A stretch of 64,000 nt of DNA from Gammaproteobacteria bacterium. Its GTDB lineage: Bacteria > Pseudomonadota > Gammaproteobacteria > SZUA-229. The stretch's first letter is position 1, and each line of letters starts with the position of its first letter. The notes beneath the pieces were generated by a model that ran no database searches, had not been told where the DNA came from, and saw nothing but the letters and a program-made list of their open reading frames with translations. The translations under genes and the position numbers were made by a program. Positions 25,181-58,335 of the stretch are shown here, in pieces. Location of the stretch: assembly GCA_015488885.1 (NCBI GenBank), contig WFMW01000057.1, positions 1 to 64,000 of the forward strand, in the 5' to 3' direction.

Positions 25181-25573
25181 GTGAAATTAAGTATTCAAAT
25201 TAATGAAGGCCCATATCAACACCAGGCCTCAGATACTGCTTATCAGTTTGCCAAAGCTGCTATCGCTGCCGGACATGAAATCTTTCGCATATTTTTCTAC
25301 CATGATGGGGTTAATAATGCGACTCGTCTTGCTGTACCACCACGCGATGACCGTGATGTATCAGCACAGTGGACAGCACTTTCAAAAGAACATGATCTGG
25401 ATCTGGTTGTCTGTATCGCTGCCGCACAACGTCGTGGTGTGATGGACGCAGCCGAAGCCAAACGTCAGGGACTTGATGCCGATAATCTGGCAGAAGGTTT
25501 CCGCATTTCTGGACTGGGTCAACTGATTGAAGCAGGTATTCAATCAGATCGCCTTGTCGTATTTGGCGCTTAG
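25181..25573 (+). CDS. dsrE: sulfurtransferase DsrE
   Basis: 130-residue subunit of the cytoplasmic DsrE2F2H2 sulfur-relay complex. Starts with GTG (AAAGG upstream). The active cysteine is in DLVVCIAAAQRRG (about residue 78), as in A. vinosum DsrE Cys78, which receives persulfide sulfur and passes it to DsrC. The C-terminal LIEAGIQSDRLVVFG is standard. dsrF follows after 14 bp. Confidence 0.96.
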   Translation: MKLSIQINEGPYQHQASDTAYQFAKAAIAAGHEIFRIFFYHDGVNNATRLAVPPRDDRDVSAQWTALSKEHDLDLVVCIAAAQRRGVMDAAEAKRQGLDADNLAEGFRISGLGQLIEAGIQSDRLVVFGA

Positions 25574-25587
25574 GTCGGGAGAAAAAT

Positions 25588-25992
25588 ATGTCAGTAAAAA
25601 AATTCATGTATATTAATCGCAAGCCACCGTATGGTACGGTTTATGCGCTGGAAGCACTGGAGGTTGTATTAATTGGTGCTGCATTTGACCAGGATGTTAG
25701 CCTGGCTTTTATCGGTGACGGAGTTTATGAACTGACCAAAGGCCAGAATACTGATGCCATTGGACAGAAAAACTTCTCCCCTACCTACACGGCGTTAGGT
25801 GATTACGACGTAAAGAAATTATATGTTGAAAAAGAATCACTGGAAGAACGCGGGTTAACATTAGATGATTTACAGCATCTTGTCTGGGAAGACGAAGACG
25901 ATGACTGGGCTGAAAAAGATTCCATTCATCTGGTAAGCCGAGCTGAAATGGCTGATGTTTTAGATGATCAAGATATAATATTAAGCTTCTAG
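25588..25992 (+). CDS. dsrF: sulfur relay subunit DsrF
   Basis: 134-residue TusC-like subunit of DsrEFH. The family start KKFMYINRKPPYGTVYALEALE is followed by DVSLAFIGDGVY. It lacks cysteines, consistent with a structural role next to DsrE and DsrH. dsrH starts nine bp after its stop, so the three genes are tightly coupled. Confidence 0.95.
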   Translation: MSVKKFMYINRKPPYGTVYALEALEVVLIGAAFDQDVSLAFIGDGVYELTKGQNTDAIGQKNFSPTYTALGDYDVKKLYVEKESLEERGLTLDDLQHLVWEDEDDDWAEKDSIHLVSRAEMADVLDDQDIILSF

Positions 25993-32823: not shown

Positions 32824-34035
32824 ATGAGTAAAATAGAATATACTTCTTTACAGGGCAAAAGCCCGGCTTATTTCGTCCTTCTGGGTGTTTTAGGTCTTTT
32901 CACCTTTACAGGTATCCTCGCTGCCTGGTATATGGAACATAACGGTCACCATGTAACCGGTATGACAAACCAGATTGTATGGGGGACGCCACATATATTT
33001 GCTATATTCCTTATTGTTGCAGCATCTGGAGCTTTGAATGTCGCTTCAATCGCATCGGTATTTTCTAAAAAAATATATGAACCGATGGCTCGTCTATCTG
33101 CCTTACTGGCTATTGCTTTACTGGCAGGTGGCCTGGTTGTATTACTGCTCGATCTGGGACGCCCAGATCGTTTGATTGTTGCCATGACCCATTACAATTT
33201 TACTTCTGTTTTTGCCTGGAATATTATTCTCTATAGCGGTTTCTTTACCTTCTGCGGTTTATATTTATGGACAATGATGGATCATAATGTGCATCAATAT
33301 AAAAAATATGCTGGGTTTTCCGCCTTTGTCTGGCGTTTAATTCTCACTACCGGTACAGGTTCTATTTTCGGTTTTCTGGTTGCCCGTTCGGCCTATGAAA
33401 CCGCAATCATGGCACCCATGTTTGTTATTATGTCCTTTTCCTATGGTCTGGCCATTTTTATTCTAGTATTAATGGCTACCTATAAAGCCAGTCAAATGGA
33501 GCTTGGCGATGTCGTCATCCTGCGTTTACGCAATTTATTAGGGGTATTTGTTGCGGCTGTCCTCTATTTTACCTTTGTTTACCATCTAACCAACATTTAT
33601 GATGCAGATCGTCGTGATTTTGAAAGATTTATCCTGCTGGATGGTGGCATATATACAACGGTATTCTGGATTGGAGATATCATAATTGGTGGTCTGATTC
33701 CACTACTACTGATTTATTTACCTTCCATTAAGAAAAATCGAACTGTTCTGGGATGGATCTGCGGAATGATTATACTGGGTGGCCTGTCACAGGTTTATGT
33801 TATTGTGATAGGTGGCCAGGCATTTCCTCTGGAAATATTCCCCGGTTATGACGTAAGTAGTTCATTTTATGACGGAATAGTAAATAGCTATACACCAAGC
33901 CTGCCAGAAATTCTATTAGGAAGCTCTGGTATCGCTATTACGCTTTTAATCGTTGTCTTTATGCTTAAAGTATTACGCTTTATGCCTAACTCTCTGGCCG
34001 ATAACGTTATCGACCCGCATTATTCTGTAAAATAA
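32824..34035 (+). CDS. dsrP: DsrP, NrfD-like membrane subunit
   Basis: 403-residue integral membrane protein with about ten helices, of the NrfD/PsrC type, completing DsrMKJOP and interacting with quinone. The family block LLLDLGRPDR lies near residue 105. It ends with a short cytoplasmic tail. The 237-bp gap downstream holds an unusual 17-bp inverted repeat before dsrN. Confidence 0.94.
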   Translation: MSKIEYTSLQGKSPAYFVLLGVLGLFTFTGILAAWYMEHNGHHVTGMTNQIVWGTPHIFAIFLIVAASGALNVASIASVFSKKIYEPMARLSALLAIALLAGGLVVLLLDLGRPDRLIVAMTHYNFTSVFAWNIILYSGFFTFCGLYLWTMMDHNVHQYKKYAGFSAFVWRLILTTGTGSIFGFLVARSAYETAIMAPMFVIMSFSYGLAIFILVLMATYKASQMELGDVVILRLRNLLGVFVAAVLYFTFVYHLTNIYDADRRDFERFILLDGGIYTTVFWIGDIIIGGLIPLLLIYLPSIKKNRTVLGWICGMIILGGLSQVYVIVIGGQAFPLEIFPGYDVSSSFYDGIVNSYTPSLPEILLGSSGIAITLLIVVFMLKVLRFMPNSLADNVIDPHYSVK

Positions 34036-52151: not shown

Positions 52152-52664
52152 ATGAATAATAAACCACTAACCGTGGGCATACTTTCTGATTCTCATGGTT
52201 TTCTACAACCAGAAATCAGGGGAATTGTAAATGACTGTGACTATATCGTTCATGCAGGTGATATATCCAGTACTGAAGTGCTAGACCAGTTACAGGCCAG
52301 AAAAAAACTTGTTGCAGTTGCTGGTAATAATGATTACCCGGCATTATGGAAAAAACAGGATGCCGCAATCGTTACCAGTTTACCTGAAGTAGCCAGCCTG
52401 ACACTACCGGGCGGGCAGCTTGTTGTGGAACATGGGCACCGTTTTGGCAATCATCCCGACCATCAGCAGTTACGTCATCAATACCCGACAGCACGAATGA
52501 TTGTTTATGGGCACACCCATCACCGGGTCATTGATCAGAGTGATGAACCCTGGGTGGTTAATCCTGGAGCCTCAGGGAAAACTCGCACCCATGGCGGTTT
52601 TTCCTGTCTGGTTCTTCATGCCAGTGAGGAGGAATGGATTATTGAAACTTTCGCACAACCCTGA
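52152..52664 (+). CDS. YfcE-type metallophosphoesterase
   Basis: 170 residues with the calcineurin-like motifs in order: GILSDSHG (D, H), VHAGDIS, VAGNND, EHGHRFG and VYGHTHHRV, ending NPGASGKTR. Two-metal phosphodiesterase of the MJ0936/YfcE family, cytoplasmic. It follows the YkgJ gene by 38 bp and is probably co-transcribed. Confidence 0.9.
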   Translation: MNNKPLTVGILSDSHGFLQPEIRGIVNDCDYIVHAGDISSTEVLDQLQARKKLVAVAGNNDYPALWKKQDAAIVTSLPEVASLTLPGGQLVVEHGHRFGNHPDHQQLRHQYPTARMIVYGHTHHRVIDQSDEPWVVNPGASGKTRTHGGFSCLVLHASEEEWIIETFAQP

Positions 52665-52735
52665 CGCAACGACGATGCACTTCCAGTGCATCGTTTTAAC
52701 TATGCGAACTGAGAGCAATAAAAACCCAGGCTATT

Positions 52736-53506
52736 TTATACCTTTATATAAACCCAGCCCTTATCTATCAGCTCGGGAATAATATCCCTGGCGGTTTTTG
52801 CTGTATTTACCTCAGGCAGCATTACGATATCGTGACCTTCTCTTTTCCTTGCTTTGGCAATCGAACGCGCACAGGCATAAAAATGAATATCTTTATTCTC
52901 CCTGATTATTTTTTCAATACGACTGCTATAGGGTGAAACATCTTTACGCAGTAAGTTAATACCTGCTTTATTGGCCACAATATCAATACTTAATGGCGTA
53001 CCGGCAACACGGTAACTGCGTATCAGCTGTTCGGTTTCATCCATGGCTTTTTTAAGCGTCAACACCCCGCCTGAGGCAACATGTATAACGATTTTTCTGG
53101 CATTATGAATAGTGGGGACATTATTAGCAAAATATTGAAAAATCTCACTTGAAGTAGCAATACCTGATTGCTGGACACCAGAACCATGCCCAAACCAGCC
53201 GATTAATGCCCCAAAAATCAGAATAATTGAGGCGGCAATCGCCGAAGATACCCTTTTCCATAATAGGGAACGGTTAAAACGGCGATCCACACGTGAACGT
53301 GGTACATCACTGTATGCATAACCAATCAACTCCTGCACGGCTTTTAGCTGACATACCCGCTCCCGTAGTCCTTTATCATCTAGAAGCCTTTGACGGATTT
53401 CATCCATTTCAGTTTTATCAAGCTGCTCATCAATAAACAGATTTAATGTCTCTTCAGAAACAGCCTTGTTATTATCAACTTCACCATTATCCGTTTGCTT
53501 GTTCAT
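52736..53506 (-). CDS. transmembrane anti-sigma factor with periplasmic DsrE-like domain
   Basis: 256 residues. The cytoplasmic part (1-80) is acidic and helical (ETLNLFIDEQLDKTEMDEIRQRL), like anti-sigma domains. One membrane helix covers about 86-106 (SAIAASIILIFGALIGWFG). The rest (about 136-256) is a DsrE-fold domain: KIVIHVASGG, LSIDIVANKAGINLLRKD, IHFYACARSIAKARKREGH with C212, and IIPELIDKGWVYIKV. The DsrE domain should face the periplasm. The start overlaps the ECF sigma stop (TAATG). The pairing and topology make it an envelope sensor; the sensed molecule is not known, and a reactive sulfur species is the natural guess. Confidence 0.8.
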   Translation of the reverse strand: MNKQTDNGEVDNNKAVSEETLNLFIDEQLDKTEMDEIRQRLLDDKGLRERVCQLKAVQELIGYAYSDVPRSRVDRRFNRSLLWKRVSSAIAASIILIFGALIGWFGHGSGVQQSGIATSSEIFQYFANNVPTIHNARKIVIHVASGGVLTLKKAMDETEQLIRSYRVAGTPLSIDIVANKAGINLLRKDVSPYSSRIEKIIRENKDIHFYACARSIAKARKREGHDIVMLPEVNTAKTARDIIPELIDKGWVYIKV

Positions 53507-54054
53507 TATTTCACTCTCCGTAACTTAAACTCAGATATATCATTAGCACCAAATTCAAGCAGCTGGTTTTTAAGTTTCTTTCTTGCCCTGAACAGACGGC
53601 TCATTATTGTACCAATGGGGACATTCACAATCTCAGCAATTTCTGCATAACTGAAGCCTGCAAAATCTGCCAGGGTTACGACTTCACGTAATGGCAAGGG
53701 TAGCTGCTCGACAGCGTTCCTCACACGTTTAATAATGGCTGCCTGCTGATAAATTTCGACATGTTCAGGTTGCTCCTGATCATGAGTTTCAATATATTCA
53801 ACATGCCTGCCTTTAACACGTAAATAATCCTGCCAGCAATTATACAATATTCGGTACAGCCAGGTATCAAGTGTCGCAACATCACGCAAACTTGCGGCGT
53901 TCTTAATTGCCTTCATTATGGTTTCCTGCACCAGATCATCAGACAGTGAAGCATCATGTGACCACGAATACGCAATCCGGTATAGCTTGTGGCGTCGTTC
54001 AGCAAATTCTGTTTTTAAGCCATAGGCCGCCAGGGCATTTTTTATTACTTTCAT
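53506..54054 (-). CDS. ECF-type RNA polymerase sigma factor
   Basis: 182 residues from the ATG at 54054, which has GGAG five bases upstream; a GTG six codons earlier is less likely. Region 2 is SDDLVQETIMKAIKN and LDTWLYRILYNCWQDY; region 4 is LPLPLREVVTLADFAGFSYAEIAEIVNVPIGTIMSRLFRARKKL. There are no regions 1 or 3, as in ECF sigma factors. Translationally coupled to its anti-sigma factor. A GGAAT-N16-CGTC promoter lies 27 bp upstream of the start, implying autoregulation. Confidence 0.93.
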   Translation of the reverse strand: MKVIKNALAAYGLKTEFAERRHKLYRIAYSWSHDASLSDDLVQETIMKAIKNAASLRDVATLDTWLYRILYNCWQDYLRVKGRHVEYIETHDQEQPEHVEIYQQAAIIKRVRNAVEQLPLPLREVVTLADFAGFSYAEIAEIVNVPIGTIMSRLFRARKKLKNQLLEFGANDISEFKLRRVK

Positions 54055-54081
54055 AGAGTCTCCAGATAACACAATATTAAA

Positions 54082-54106
54082 GACGAAATAACAGCATAAT
54101 TATTCC
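54082..54106 (-). promoter_or_regulatory. ECF-type promoter of the sigma gene
   Basis: On the minus strand GGAAT (54102-54106), 16 bp, CGTC (54082-54085), followed by TTT. This is the classic ECF promoter architecture, with the -10 element 27 bp before the sigma start. The same hexamer/tetramer pair with the same 16-bp spacing occurs divergently at 54390-54414. Confidence 0.7.
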
Positions 54107-54389
54107 TTTTTTTATATTTTAATAGCCAGGCAATAATATAACGCGCTTTATCTTGCGCCTTAATATAAAAATACCATCATAAGATACCCACCCTTCCCGG
54201 TTGTTTTCCTTATACAGATAATATCAGCTTCCCCTGTCTTTCCCTTTAAAAACAAATAATTTGTGAATAATTACGTGGCAGTCATATCAAATGGAATATT
54301 CCCAGGATAAACGTCTTTTTTGAATACTGTTTTTAAGTGTAATTCACTCCAGCTAACGGATCAAGCATCAATAAAAACAAATTAACCAT

Positions 54390-54414
54390 GGAATAAAAAG
54401 CCATACTATTCGTC
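54390..54414 (+). promoter_or_regulatory. ECF-type promoter of the divergent DsrE/porin operon
   Basis: GGAAT (54390-54394), 16 bp, CGTC (54411-54414), then TCT. It is identical in key elements and spacing to the promoter of the sigma gene (both read GGAATAA at the -35). A nearby GGAATATTCC / CGTC pair at 54293-54315 has a 14-bp spacer and is less convincing. Confidence 0.7.
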
Positions 54415-54469
54415 TCTGGTATTAGAAAATCAAAAATACAAATCTTCAGAATTACGGAGGAAAATTAAA

Positions 54470-54484
54470 ATGAAAGCATATTGA
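54470..54484 (+). other. minimal leader ORF (Met-Lys-Ala-Tyr) with strong ribosome site
   Basis: GGAGGA (54456-54461) sits nine bases before ATG-AAA-GCA-TAT-TGA. Downstream of the TGA the same frame stays open for a further 25 codons with a short hydrophobic run. It could be a leader peptide in the 230-base 5' region between the ECF promoter and the DsrE-like gene, or the remains of a gene ended by a nonsense codon. The rest of 54055-54652 is promoter and repeat sequence. Confidence 0.4.
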
Positions 54485-54560
54485 ATTGTGTTTTATAAAC
54501 TGAATAAGCATTTGACCGCGATTATGATCATGACAATGAATAATTTATTCAAAACCATTT

Positions 54561-54638
54561 AATAATCTCAATCAATAATATCAATCAATAATATCAATCA
54601 ATAATATCAATCAATAATATCAATCAATAATTATCGAT
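54561..54638. repeat. 13-bp tandem repeat (AATAATATCAATC)
   Basis: Four perfect units at 54574-54625, with a degenerate unit on each side (54561-54573 and 54626-54638). The array ends three bases before the GAGGAG of the DsrE-like gene, inside its presumed 5' untranslated region. Unit number could vary by slippage. Confidence 0.9.
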
Positions 54639-54652
54639 AAGAGGAGAAATAT

Positions 54653-55093
54653 ATGAAAAAGATAACAATGCTACTTGTGTTTCTATTAGCCATACCCTTT
54701 AGTTACCAGGTACAGGCATCCGTAGAAAGCAAGCCTTTTGCAGAACACAGAATTGTCCTTCAGATCAGTGACCCCAACCCGTTTAAACAAACGCTGGTAT
54801 TGAATGTCGCGTCCAATCTTCTTAAATATTATGGTTCGGATAAAGTCGATGTTGAAATTGTCGCTTTTGGCCCGGGCTTGCGTTTACTGTTCAAGGGTAA
54901 TGCCAATCGGAAGCGAATCAGCAGCCTGAACTCAGAAGGAATACGATTTTCGGCATGTAAAAACACCATTGCAGCCATGACCAGAAAACTTGGTCACAAG
55001 CCAGATCTGAATACCCATGCTGTACCTGTCTCAGCGGGTGTAGTGCGTATTATCAATCTGATTAGCAAAGGCTACGTGCTGATAAAACCCTGA
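54653..55093 (+). CDS. secreted DsrE-like protein, paralogue of the anti-sigma sensor domain
   Basis: 146 residues with a Sec signal peptide (about 1-22, ending VQA). The mature domain has the DsrE-like pattern HRIVLQISD, VDVEIVAFGPGLRLLF, IRFSACKNTIAAMTRKLGH with the single cysteine C102, and VVRIINLISKGYVLIKP. The F-x-A-C-x3-I-A...RK...GH block and the K-G-(Y/W)-V-x-I-K ending also occur in the anti-sigma factor; the cysteine-to-GH distance is 13 in both. Periplasmic. GAGGAG precedes the ATG. It is the first gene of the divergent, probably sigma-controlled unit. Confidence 0.82.
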   Translation: MKKITMLLVFLLAIPFSYQVQASVESKPFAEHRIVLQISDPNPFKQTLVLNVASNLLKYYGSDKVDVEIVAFGPGLRLLFKGNANRKRISSLNSEGIRFSACKNTIAAMTRKLGHKPDLNTHAVPVSAGVVRIINLISKGYVLIKP

Positions 55094-55140
55094 ATCCTTT
55101 TCTATAACAAAATAATTCCAACTAACCACCAATATCGGGA

Positions 55141-56544
55141 ATGAAAATTATGAATATATTAAAAAACACATTATGTACTATTATTATTGGCAGTAGTGTC
55201 CTGATGACTGAGCAAGCCTGTGCCGTCAACTGGTTAATGGTTCAGGGTACTGAAGTAGCCGGAACCGCACCTCGCGCCAGACTCTGGGGTTTCCTGCAAC
55301 CACAGTATCAGCATAATCAGAACAATAAACTTGCCGCAGGACCTTTTAAAGGTAAGGATGCCGCCTTTAATATGGTTGGCCCCAACCTTGAAAGCAATTC
55401 ACAGTTTCAGTTACGTCGAGCTCGTATTGGTGTTCGCGGTACGGGGTTTCCATTAAACGACAAGATCAACTACTTTTTCCTGGCAGAATTTGGTAGAAAC
55501 GGTATTACTGAAAACAGTTCTGCGGTTGCACTGACTGATGCCAGCGTAACCTTTAATTACATTAAAGGCGCACGTGTTCGTGTTGGTCAGTTTAAAACAC
55601 CGATGAGCGAAGAAGTTTATCAGGGTATTGCCCTGTTCGACTGGATTAACTTTACCGGCTACGCCAACCAGCAATTACTGGAACGTTCATTCAAAACTGA
55701 TGGTCTGACTCCATGTAAGACACAAGGCAGTAACCAGGCCTATATTGCTAATTGCCAATACGGTAATAAATGGACAGCTTTTGGTGCCGCTCGCGATACC
55801 GGCATTCAGGTTTTCGATACATTTGTTTTCGATAGTATGAAAGACTGGGAATTCAGTTATTCTGCCATGCTTGGCAACGGTAATGGACTCAACCAGGGTG
55901 ATAATAATAACAATAAGGACTATTATCTCTACTTATCGATTGAGCAGGTCTATGATGGCAAACGTGCGCGCCGTAACGGCTGGAAAACCTTTGTCTGGTA
56001 TAACAAGGGAAAACGTAAACTTCTCGATAGCAAAAGTCTGAATACTGGTACATCTGTTAAAAAAGAATACGACCGTACACGTTACGGCATCGGTACGACT
56101 TATCGCAAGGGGAAAATTCGTGCCGCAGCAGAATATAATAAAGCCAGTGGTATGATTTTTAATGGCACCACCGGCGGCGCCACACCGGGCACAATGAACG
56201 CACAGGGTCTTGTATCACAGTTTAATGTATTACCCAATGAAAAAGCGGATGGCTGGTATCTTGACTTTGGCTATAATGTAACACCGGAAATTCAGCTGGC
56301 AGCACGATTTGATCGTTATGATCGAGCTACTGCAGACAGCAGACATTTAAATGCCAACGGCAAAGGTGATAAACGTCGTTTTGACACATGGACTGTCGAA
56401 GCACAATATTTCTTTGACAAGAAAACCCGTGCAACCGTTAACTATCAATTCCGTGATGCCAAAGCCTATCACAATGCAACAGCAGAAAAAATACTCGCTG
56501 ACATGGGTGATATTCTATCCTTCCAGGTAACCACGATATTTTAG
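55141..56544 (+). CDS. outer-membrane porin of the phosphate-selective (OprO/OprP) type
   Basis: 467 residues with a signal peptide (about 1-28) and beta-barrel-like alternation up to a terminal phenylalanine (QVTTIF), as expected for BAM substrates. FQLRRARIGVRGTGFP and ARVRVGQFKTPMSEE are the family's recurrent blocks. Likely forms an anion channel in the outer membrane. Located 47 bp after the DsrE-like gene, so co-expression under the sigma factor is expected. The solute is unknown; sulfur oxyanions are a guess. Confidence 0.8.
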   Translation: MKIMNILKNTLCTIIIGSSVLMTEQACAVNWLMVQGTEVAGTAPRARLWGFLQPQYQHNQNNKLAAGPFKGKDAAFNMVGPNLESNSQFQLRRARIGVRGTGFPLNDKINYFFLAEFGRNGITENSSAVALTDASVTFNYIKGARVRVGQFKTPMSEEVYQGIALFDWINFTGYANQQLLERSFKTDGLTPCKTQGSNQAYIANCQYGNKWTAFGAARDTGIQVFDTFVFDSMKDWEFSYSAMLGNGNGLNQGDNNNNKDYYLYLSIEQVYDGKRARRNGWKTFVWYNKGKRKLLDSKSLNTGTSVKKEYDRTRYGIGTTYRKGKIRAAAEYNKASGMIFNGTTGGATPGTMNAQGLVSQFNVLPNEKADGWYLDFGYNVTPEIQLAARFDRYDRATADSRHLNANGKGDKRRFDTWTVEAQYFFDKKTRATVNYQFRDAKAYHNATAEKILADMGDILSFQVTTIF

Positions 56545-56637
56545 TGAGCTTAGGGAACATCTGAACAAGACAGGTTGTTGTAACAAAACGAAGATAAGGA
56601 TAATTTTGTATTATTAATATTGAGCGATGGTTAATAC

Positions 56638-56686
56638 AGGAACCCCTGATTAGTCTATTATACTAAGAAACCCGTCAGGGGTTCCT
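56638..56686 (+). terminator. long-loop hairpin between porin and DUF302 genes
   Basis: Twelve-bp perfect stem AGGAACCCCTGA / TCAGGGGTTCCT with a 25-base loop, followed by TAACCTTAAA rather than a T-run. It may be a weak terminator or an mRNA end stabiliser. It is 20 bp before the DUF302 start. Confidence 0.5.
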
Positions 56687-56706
56687 TAACCTTAAAGGCA
56701 TTATTT

Positions 56707-57183
56707 ATGATAACAAATACAATAAAAAAGTTATTGACAGCCGGTTACCTGCTTATTGCCCTGTTTGCTTATCCATCCGTTTCCAGTGCACATCCAGATG
56801 GTTTGATTCGATTGAAAAGCCACCACAGTGTTAGCGTTACTATTGATCGATTGCAGACAGCTTTACAGGCACGCGGGATGACCATCTTCAAACGTATCAA
56901 TCATGCTGCTGGCGGCAAAAAAGCTGGTATTTATATTCGACCGACACAACTGCTGATATTTGGCAACCCAAAAATCGGTACTAAACTAATGCAATGCAGT
57001 CAGCAAGCCGCTATTGATCTACCACAGAAAGCGCTGGCCTATAAAGATAAATCTGGACAGGTCTGGCTGATTTACAATGATCCTTTTTATATGGCAGACA
57101 GACATCATATCAAGGGTTGCAAAAAAGTTATTAAAAAATTCAGTCACGCACTGGCACATTTCACAAAAACAGCTGTAGAATAA
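56707..57183 (+). CDS. secreted DUF302-family protein
   Basis: 158 residues with a signal peptide (about 1-28, ending SSAHP). The DUF302 core is visible: SVTIDRLQTALQARGMTIFKRINHAAGGKKAG, RPTQLLIFGNPKIGTKLMQCSQQAAIDLPQKALAYKD and a terminal tail. Two cysteines (MQCSQ and KGCKK). Periplasmic. DUF302 proteins recur in sulfur and heavy-metal gene sets but have no settled function. Probably a member of the same stress unit. Confidence 0.82.
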   Translation: MITNTIKKLLTAGYLLIALFAYPSVSSAHPDGLIRLKSHHSVSVTIDRLQTALQARGMTIFKRINHAAGGKKAGIYIRPTQLLIFGNPKIGTKLMQCSQQAAIDLPQKALAYKDKSGQVWLIYNDPFYMADRHHIKGCKKVIKKFSHALAHFTKTAVE

Positions 57184-57211
57184 TTTTTCAAATAACACGC
57201 ATAGAAATATA

Positions 57212-57243
57212 TTTATCAACAGCAAAATTTATCAACAGCAAAT
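57212..57243. repeat. tandem 14-15-bp repeat before TlpA-like gene
   Basis: ATTTATCAACAGCAAA occurs twice in succession (from about 57212 and 57227). A local duplication just before the start of the thioredoxin-like gene. Confidence 0.7.
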
Positions 57244-57255
57244 AAAAATTTTATT

Positions 57256-57837
57256 ATGTTAAAACAAAAAATTATAACAGCTAAAATCAGGCACTATTTT
57301 CAGCTAATGATTTTTATTGCATCTTTAATAACTTTACCTGCACAAAGTTATGCCCTGAATAAAGTCGAAATGTATGACACCCTCAACCACAAACATCAAC
57401 TTTCTGAATATATCGGTAAGGGGAAATGGGTAGTATTGAATATATGGGCAACACGCTGCCCACCCTGCCGTGAGGAAATACCGGAACTGGTTTTCTTTAA
57501 TGACGCACATAAAGACAGCGATGCCATTGTTGTTGGTATTGCTATCGATTTTCCCAGTTATGGTTATGCCAATGAAAAGGAAGTGAAGGCGTTCATGAAA
57601 GGTAACTTCGTTAAATATCCGGTATTATTAAGTGATGCCATGATCACTCAGGATCTTGGACTAGGCAGACTAAGCGGTTTACCCACGACTTTTATGTTTA
57701 CACCTGAAGGTAAAGTTGCAGGCATGCAGGTTGGTGGTATTACAAAAGAAATACTGGAAACCTTTATCAGGCAATACAATAAAGAACATCCAGGGAAAAA
57801 TAATCACAGTAAAGCTCACAGTAAGGCAGATAGATAA
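57256..57837 (+). CDS. TlpA/ResA-like thiol-disulfide oxidoreductase
   Basis: 193 residues with an N-terminal signal or anchor (about 15-33) and a thioredoxin fold. The redox motif CPPC is at residues 68-71 (ATRCPPCREE) and the cis-proline loop is GLPTTFMFT. Note ATRCPPC instead of the usual ATWCPPC. Periplasm-facing. It could keep the cysteines of the DsrE-like proteins reduced. The C-terminus is a short Lys/His/Ser-rich tail. Position within the sigma-linked block supports a shared role. Confidence 0.85.
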   Translation: MLKQKIITAKIRHYFQLMIFIASLITLPAQSYALNKVEMYDTLNHKHQLSEYIGKGKWVVLNIWATRCPPCREEIPELVFFNDAHKDSDAIVVGIAIDFPSYGYANEKEVKAFMKGNFVKYPVLLSDAMITQDLGLGRLSGLPTTFMFTPEGKVAGMQVGGITKEILETFIRQYNKEHPGKNNHSKAHSKADR

Positions 57838-57930
57838 GTCAAAGGAAGGCAGTGCAGTACTTCACTCAGCTGAGTTTTGGTATTATACTGATTGCTGATT
57901 CATACAGAAATCTGGTAAGGAGAAAATATT

Positions 57931-58335
57931 GTGAAGAATATCGTTTGGGACAATGCATTAAGTGTCGAAGTCGATGAAATAGATGAAGACCATCGTAAAC
58001 TCGTCGATCTATATAATATTCTCAGTCACAGTGTAACAGAAGGTGATAGCGATAAGTATATTGAAGCCGTGCTGGAAGAGCTGATAAGCTGCACCATCTG
58101 GCACTTTAAACACGAAGAACGTCTGATGCTGTTATATAAATACAACGATATTATGGAGCACAAAGCAGAACATGAGGAATTAATCAATAGTGTCAAAGCA
58201 TTGCAACAGAAATTTTATAAAGAGAATAAACAGCTAAGTAATGAAGATATCGACTATCTGGATACCTGGTTAACCGAGCATATCCTTGGCCATGATATGA
58301 AACTGGGATTTTATCTTATAAATGTCATGCGCTAG
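57931..58335 (+). CDS. bacteriohemerythrin
   Basis: 134-residue four-helix di-iron protein. All ligands are present: H21, H58, E62, H77, H81, H117 and D122. GTG start with AAGGAG upstream. Cytoplasmic single-domain hemerythrin that binds oxygen or senses it. Separated by 93 bp from the TlpA gene; co-regulation is uncertain. Confidence 0.92.
   Translation: MKNIVWDNALSVEVDEIDEDHRKLVDLYNILSHSVTEGDSDKYIEAVLEELISCTIWHFKHEERLMLLYKYNDIMEHKAEHEELINSVKALQQKFYKENKQLSNEDIDYLDTWLTEHILGHDMKLGFYLINVMR

Follow-up and report, generated by a model that had tools for sequence, protein, structure and literature searches.

Among described systems, the RpoE/RseA and AlgU/MucA pairs resemble the locus reported here in having overlapping sigma and anti-sigma genes, a single transmembrane (TM) helix with the N-terminus inside, a cytoplasmic helical sigma-binding part (predicted in our case) and an autoregulated ECF promoter (in our case predicted from a motif); RseP, too, is encoded in the genome. 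They differ from it in the periplasmic part: here a DsrE-fold domain and its invariant Cys take the place of their known sensor regions. This domain has the fold and the sulfur-binding Cys position of DsrE/TusD and MTH1491-type carriers (PF02635; PMC3397948, PMC4175335), but it is periplasmic, shares one polypeptide with an anti-sigma domain and a TM helix, and comes without DsrF/DsrH.

ECF factors have been connected with sulfur oxidation before. In Sinorhizobium (S. meliloti), the ECF26 factors RpoE1 and RpoE4 control periplasmic sulfite oxidation (SorT) and are induced by thiosulfate or taurine metabolism (PMC3511301). ECF control of periplasmic sulfur oxidation is also what we predict here; however, the target in that alphaproteobacterial system is sulfite dehydrogenase rather than soxB, and a DsrE domain is not described there. 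The ECF factors sigma-2 and sigma-7 of A. butzleri alter sox expression (PMC3445524), but have broad respiratory regulons, with neither a sensor nor a DsrE domain reported. The sulfane-sulfur repressors SoxR and sHdrR regulate sox and SoxT-type transporter genes, SoxR via cysteine sulfuration (PMC10451225); these are cytoplasmic ArsR-type proteins with two cysteines, in contrast to the ECF sigma factor and one-Cys periplasmic domain considered here. The same 2023 study of SoxR stated that thiosulfate sensing is little known, suggested that little regulation may suffice for dedicated chemolithotrophs, and described as a mystery how sulfur from Sox enters the cytoplasm (PMC10451225). In the open literature that we searched (the main ECF classification lay outside its scope), no description was found of a DsrE anti-sigma factor, a periplasmic DsrE or an ECF factor together with soxB. 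This agrees with an initial reading of the DNA from its letters alone (hereafter, the sequence-only reading), which knew of no system of this kind. The frame of an ECF factor and a one-helix anti-sigma factor is classical; the use of a DsrE fold as its sensor appears undescribed in that literature, and the clade may belong to an unnamed ECF group.

An overlapping sigma and anti-sigma gene pair

The window, i.e. the whole stretch of gammaproteobacterial DNA that was analysed (64,000 nucleotides), contains a sulfur-oxidation island (22648-51052) with dsrA, dsrB, dsrE, dsrF, dsrM, dsrO, sat and aprA, which ends shortly before the ECF module. A search of the genome for soxC found none; the Sox system thus appears truncated, and sulfane sulfur would be expected to go to the cytoplasmic rDsr pathway. 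The ECF sigma factor gene (53506..54054, minus strand; 182 aa; Sigma70_r2, r4_2 and TIGR02937) encodes, according to the domain search, sigma-70 region 2 at residues 21-83 (E 7e-13) and region 4 (r4_2) at residues 110-161 (E 1e-17). With these two regions alone, and neither region 3 nor a further domain, the protein is by its region content an ECF sigma factor (sigma-70 family group 4). An SD-like TGGAGA precedes its ATG at 54054. The gene is joined to that of the anti-sigma factor by the overlap TAATG, and both this overlap and the coordinates of the pair (52736-54054, minus strand) proved to be exactly as first read. An ECF gene was likewise expected beside homologues of the anti-sigma gene elsewhere, and it adjoins them in 54 of 58 loci; the other four comprise one contig end and three over-long ORF calls of the anti-sigma gene.

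The anti-sigma factor gene (52736..53506, minus strand; 256 aa), characterised by AlphaFold2 (AF2) modelling, Foldseek and profile searches, encodes at its N-terminus a cytoplasmic helical domain (residues 17-66; 53309..53458, minus strand) with three helices in the model, at residues 18-25, 31-43 and 45-66. The NCBIfam anti-sigma model matches 15 of 49 homologues and zf-HC2/RseA_N a few, and the helical domain gives a weak profile match (E 0.3) to the N-terminal domains of RseA/MucA. A TM helix with its N-terminus inside follows (residues 86-104; 53195..53251, minus strand), placed by a hydropathy of 2.12, peaking from residue 86, and by a charge bias of six K/R before it and none after. More K/R are present on the N-terminal side of this helix in 45 of the 49 homologues, and a second TM helix was found in none of the 49. 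Having its N-terminal helices beside an ECF gene, the protein appears, from sequence and model, to fit the membrane anti-sigma factors with a class I domain. The AF2 helices, hydropathy and charge bias thus bear out the cytoplasmic helical part and single membrane helix of the sequence-only reading, and the topology places the DsrE-like domain in the periplasm and not in the cytoplasm.

A sulfur-carrier fold at the periplasmic end

The AF2 model, built with 49 sequences, has a mean pLDDT of 85, which exceeds 90 across most of the C-terminal alpha/beta domain (residues 135-256; 52739..53104, minus strand). The best Foldseek match of this domain was 1L1S/MTH1491 (E 3e-7, TM score 0.89 by target length), with lower matches to 2PD2/ST0148, E. 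coli YchN and DsrEFH subunits; against PDB sequences, the profile of the anti-sigma family again retrieved 1L1S (E 3e-19). The Pfam DsrE model (PF02635) gave no match to the window protein at E<=1 and matched 11 of the 49 homologues at E<=0.01. Since Foldseek and the profile agree, and Pfam misses the window protein but reaches these 11, we regard the domain as at best a divergent member of the DsrE family, lying below the curated Pfam cut-off in the window protein. The DsrE fold claimed from the letters alone was thus recovered by both structure and profile comparison.

In the model, Cys212 (codon 52871..52873, minus strand) comes right after the core strand 207-211, at the start of the next helix, and aligns with the MTH1491 Cys; this is where the family has its sulfur-binding Cys. 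Every homologue aligned has it (49 of 49 and 58 of 58, at identities of 22-50%), and it is the sole Cys of the periplasmic part, so that the lone, well-placed cysteine pointed out earlier does occupy the active position of the family. The other Cys of the protein, Cys52, is cytoplasmic and lost in many homologues. In Allochromatium (A. vinosum) DsrE, Cys78 carries sulfur (PMC3397948), and in Metallosphaera (M. cuprina) DsrE3A takes up thiosulfonate from tetrathionate (PMC4175335); DsrEFH was without direct reaction toward thiosulfate or GSSH (PMC3397948). By analogy with these carriers, Cys212 would be loaded with sulfur, and a direct sensing of sulfane sulfur or of a thiosulfonate by this residue is likely. 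A cytoplasmic heterohexamer of the DsrEFH/TusBCD type does not fit the domain, which the topology places in the periplasm and which has no adjoining DsrF/DsrH partner genes; the true dsrEF genes are elsewhere in the window (25181-25992). It should be noted that a DsrE fold outside the cytoplasm, which had been taken as unusual in itself, is not so, secreted DsrE proteins being common in Proteobacteria; it is the use of the fold as an anti-sigma sensor that remains without a description found.

A conserved divergon with a shared predicted promoter

Divergent from the ECF operon is a gene for a secreted DsrE-family protein (54653..55093, plus strand; 146 aa, signal peptide, invariant Cys102; profile against 1L1S, E 7e-11). 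It is followed by an outer-membrane porin gene of the Porin_O_P type (55141..56544, plus strand; PF07396 in 12 of 14 homologues, best E 7e-16) and by two probable operon members, encoding a secreted DUF302 protein (56707..57183, plus strand; PF03625, E 5e-19), with a homologue in 12 related loci, and a ResA/TlpA-like periplasmic thioredoxin (57256..57837, plus strand; PF00578), whose orthologue lies inside the divergon in nine close relatives. Part of an NCBIfam model named for the fluoride transporter CrcB is also matched by the DUF302 protein, which looks like a DUF302 segment within that model and not like a crcB gene. In close relatives, the gap between the two arms holds the ResA/TlpA-like thioredoxin and a second secreted DsrE. 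In the window, a nearly perfect 13-bp tandem repeat of 5.5 copies (54561-54631; AATAATATCAATC) sits in the long leader that runs from the ECF-type promoter to secreted dsrE, where close relatives have these genes.

The anti-sigma profile had too little conserved stretch for scanning, and the secreted DsrE profile was therefore used as bait against 84,980 species genomes, from which the 80 best loci were retained. The ECF/anti-sigma-DsrE pair stands divergently beside secreted dsrE in 65 of these 80 loci, a count that is independent of the anti-sigma sequence, yet comes from a profile built from ECF-linked copies; several of the other loci end too early. In 51 loci, secreted dsrE is directly followed by the porin gene. 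Starting from the anti-sigma homologues, secreted dsrE is near 38 of 58 in the short stretches examined. The pair and the facing secreted DsrE and porin genes are a conserved divergon, which extends beyond the sigma/anti-sigma pair alone. The sequence-only reading had overlooked these facing genes, as well as the shared promoter motif and the predicted regulon described below.

Motif discovery by spaced-word counting in the divergent intergenic regions returned GGAATA-N16-CGTC and close variants of it; up to 30 loci contain such a word, while in shuffled sequences the best word reached 5. In the form GGAATAA-N14/15-C[G/A]TCT with at most one mismatch, the motif precedes the ECF gene in 59 loci and secreted dsrE in 53, the window included in both. 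Both arms of the window divergon carry it as GGAATAA-N14-CGTCT, at 54081..54106 (minus strand) before the sigma/anti-sigma operon and at 54390..54415 (plus strand) toward secreted dsrE, where 0.00 are expected from shuffles. Motifs at both arms are the usual sign of an autoregulated ECF factor with a neighbouring target, and we treat the two sites as predicted promoters. A further site in the window (32985-33010, minus strand) is antisense within a gene and was taken as chance. No RNA element was found with Rfam at 52500-58000.

Predicted targets in sulfur oxidation

The 2.63-Mb genome as a whole holds four exact copies of the motif and none of the reversed-pattern control. Along with the ECF operon and secreted dsrE, the sites precede soxB (TIGR04486, 711 bits; motif 111 nt upstream) and a Sulf_transp gene of the YeeE/TsuA type (PF04143; 48 nt upstream). 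Across 41 genomes of the family the exact motif was in no excess (34 sites against 36 reversed controls), so the motif count alone was rejected as evidence, and it is the position of the sites, not their number, that argues for targets. We searched with a weight matrix (score of at least 13) for which the divergon promoters, apart from those of the window, served as the training set; p-values from loci that had in part been selected for the motif were dropped in favour of the expectation from a clean background. Such sites precede soxB in 14 of 30 relatives and Sulf_transp genes in 5 of 30, with about 0.15 expected in each case. GAATA and CGTC are invariant in the soxB sites, an invariance partly built in, as the sites were chosen by score; their spacer and flanks hold 0.33 bits per column, which equals the background and argues that they are not merely recent copies. 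The soxB motif follows the anti-sigma clade, being present in 10 of 12 relatives with close homologues and 4 of 18 others (Fisher p 0.002), and it is missing in many relatives with more distant ones.

In other relatives the motif also stands before a soxX gene (TIGR04485 over cut-off) and before genes for carbonic anhydrase and a ModA/CysP-like solute-binding protein. The latter, found under the motif or beside the module in five loci (L164, L169, L176, L138:7455-8411 and L077:6904-7860), is likely a further member of the regulon. In the metagenome-assembled genome L138, the module has a sox operon on one side (soxXYZA-B; soxX and soxB called by homology, soxYZA by eye) and yeeE with a tusA-like gene on the other. 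One run (L138:2468-13922) comprises soxX-YZA-B, secreted DsrE, the ModA/CysP-like protein, the divergon, porin, thioredoxin, yeeE and the tusA-like gene, a second secreted DsrE following soxB. Repeats of about 80 bp with motif-like words precede soxX in L138, and the perfect-looking site found there belongs to this local repeat (copies at 2468, 2548 and 2628) and was not counted. At L160/L174 (G009:C218), a gene for a SoxB-like metallophosphoesterase takes the place of secreted dsrE as the divergent neighbour of the ECF gene, with motifs on both sides. Two loci (L152 and L153) have a secreted protein of 463-465 aa under exact motif sites, for which, in L152, no Pfam or NCBIfam match was obtained. 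Judged from the predicted promoters, the system very probably controls thiosulfate oxidation by a truncated Sox pathway.

Occurrence in Gammaproteobacteria

Homologues of the anti-sigma factor with 44-50% identity over most of their length were found in 15 relatives of the same family, and further ones at 25-37%. Within the class, the anti-sigma query had matches in 82 of 369 genomes sampled, some of which are DsrE-only proteins. Full-length anti-sigma/DsrE fusions, sought across the phylum, were found in Gammaproteobacteria only; outside this class we saw secreted DsrE without ECF in the stretches examined, or anti-sigma factors without DsrE. In three such loci from outside the class (L264, L267 and L271), soxB and secreted dsrE share a strand, secreted dsrE lying just 3' of soxB, and the stretch shows no ECF gene. 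In some genomes (G240, G116 and G168) the anti-sigma-DsrE query has three or four matches each, most of them full-length, which suggests paralogues of the sensor that differ in signal or target. A contig labelled Phycisphaerales (L119; MAG SpSt-1214) carries the whole module and is probably a mis-binned gammaproteobacterial contig.

Discussion

We propose a trans-envelope switch for sulfur oxidation, made up of the architecture described above, sulfur uptake by Cys212, release of the sigma factor and a regulon with soxB and yeeE; taken as a whole, we consider this probable on balance. The architecture, the topology, the invariant Cys, the conserved divergon, the shared promoter and the motif at soxB and yeeE can be read from the sequences; sigma binding, sulfur uptake by Cys212, proteolysis and the direction of the response are what we infer in addition. 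When the signal is absent, the anti-sigma helical domain would tether the ECF factor to the inner membrane. Oxidation of thiosulfate or sulfide would raise periplasmic sulfane sulfur (polysulfide, persulfide, or thiosulfonate from tetrathionate), and Cys212 would take up a sulfur group, either directly or from secreted DsrE. The changed DsrE domain would then lead to release of the sigma factor, most simply by site-1 cleavage followed by RseP, which is present in the genome. The freed factor would transcribe its own operon, the secreted DsrE-porin(-DUF302-thioredoxin) genes, soxB and the YeeE/TsuA-type transporter gene, and the outcome would be more periplasmic cleavage of thiosulfate and more import of sulfur to the cytoplasmic rDsr pathway. 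An argument against this switch is that a lone periplasmic Cys cannot form an internal disulfide, and the route by which the signal is transmitted is not obvious. The fuller proposal, i.e. a sulfur-carrier domain acting as the periplasmic sensor of an anti-sigma factor, loaded by a secreted paralogue and closing a feedback loop with Sox and sulfur import in gammaproteobacteria, is put forward tentatively, at somewhat under an even chance.

The strict divergent linkage is best accommodated by another explanation, in which the DsrE domain of the anti-sigma factor docks with secreted DsrE rather than reading a small molecule; the free or unloaded secreted protein would hold the anti-sigma factor off or on, and sulfur loading would break or make the complex. 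RseB caps RseA in an analogous manner, and DsrE-family proteins assemble as oligomers. The sensor domain and the secreted protein have a fold family in common, their genes are neighbours in 65 of the 80 loci, and both arms have the same promoter motif. However, secreted dsrE is missing from the short stretch for a third of the anti-sigma homologues (38 of 58 have it), and docking alone leaves the exceptionless retention of the sensor's own Cys unexplained, so that we rate it as unlikely, though the most plausible of the alternatives. Less probable still is a general sensor of envelope thiols or oxidants, in which stress from HOCl, peroxide or disulfides would oxidise Cys212 or draw it into an intermolecular disulfide, the sulfur genes being incidental: a single exposed Cys and the nearby ResA/TlpA-like thioredoxin gene would suit it, and Cys-based redox anti-sigma factors exist (RsrA, of the cytoplasmic zinc type; PMC4960319), but the predicted targets serve sulfur oxidation and transport, not oxidant defence, and the domain has the fold of a sulfur carrier. 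That the domain serves as a structural plug or has another ligand, its Cys being kept solely for folding, would fit the drift of the window protein below the Pfam DsrE threshold, but is very improbable given a Cys212 that is invariant at 22-50% identity while the cytoplasmic Cys52 is often lost.

Under the proposed sulfur-responsive switch, secreted DsrE, the porin, the YeeE/TsuA transporter and the thioredoxin become co-regulated candidate parts of periplasmic sulfur handling. The host is of the type with rDsr, Apr, Sat and SoxB, without SoxC found, and how such truncated-Sox oxidisers sense reduced sulfur is poorly known; the module offers a specific envelope sensor for it. As predicted from its sequence, this switch probably monitors the state of sulfur in the envelope and switches on the oxidation of thiosulfate accordingly.
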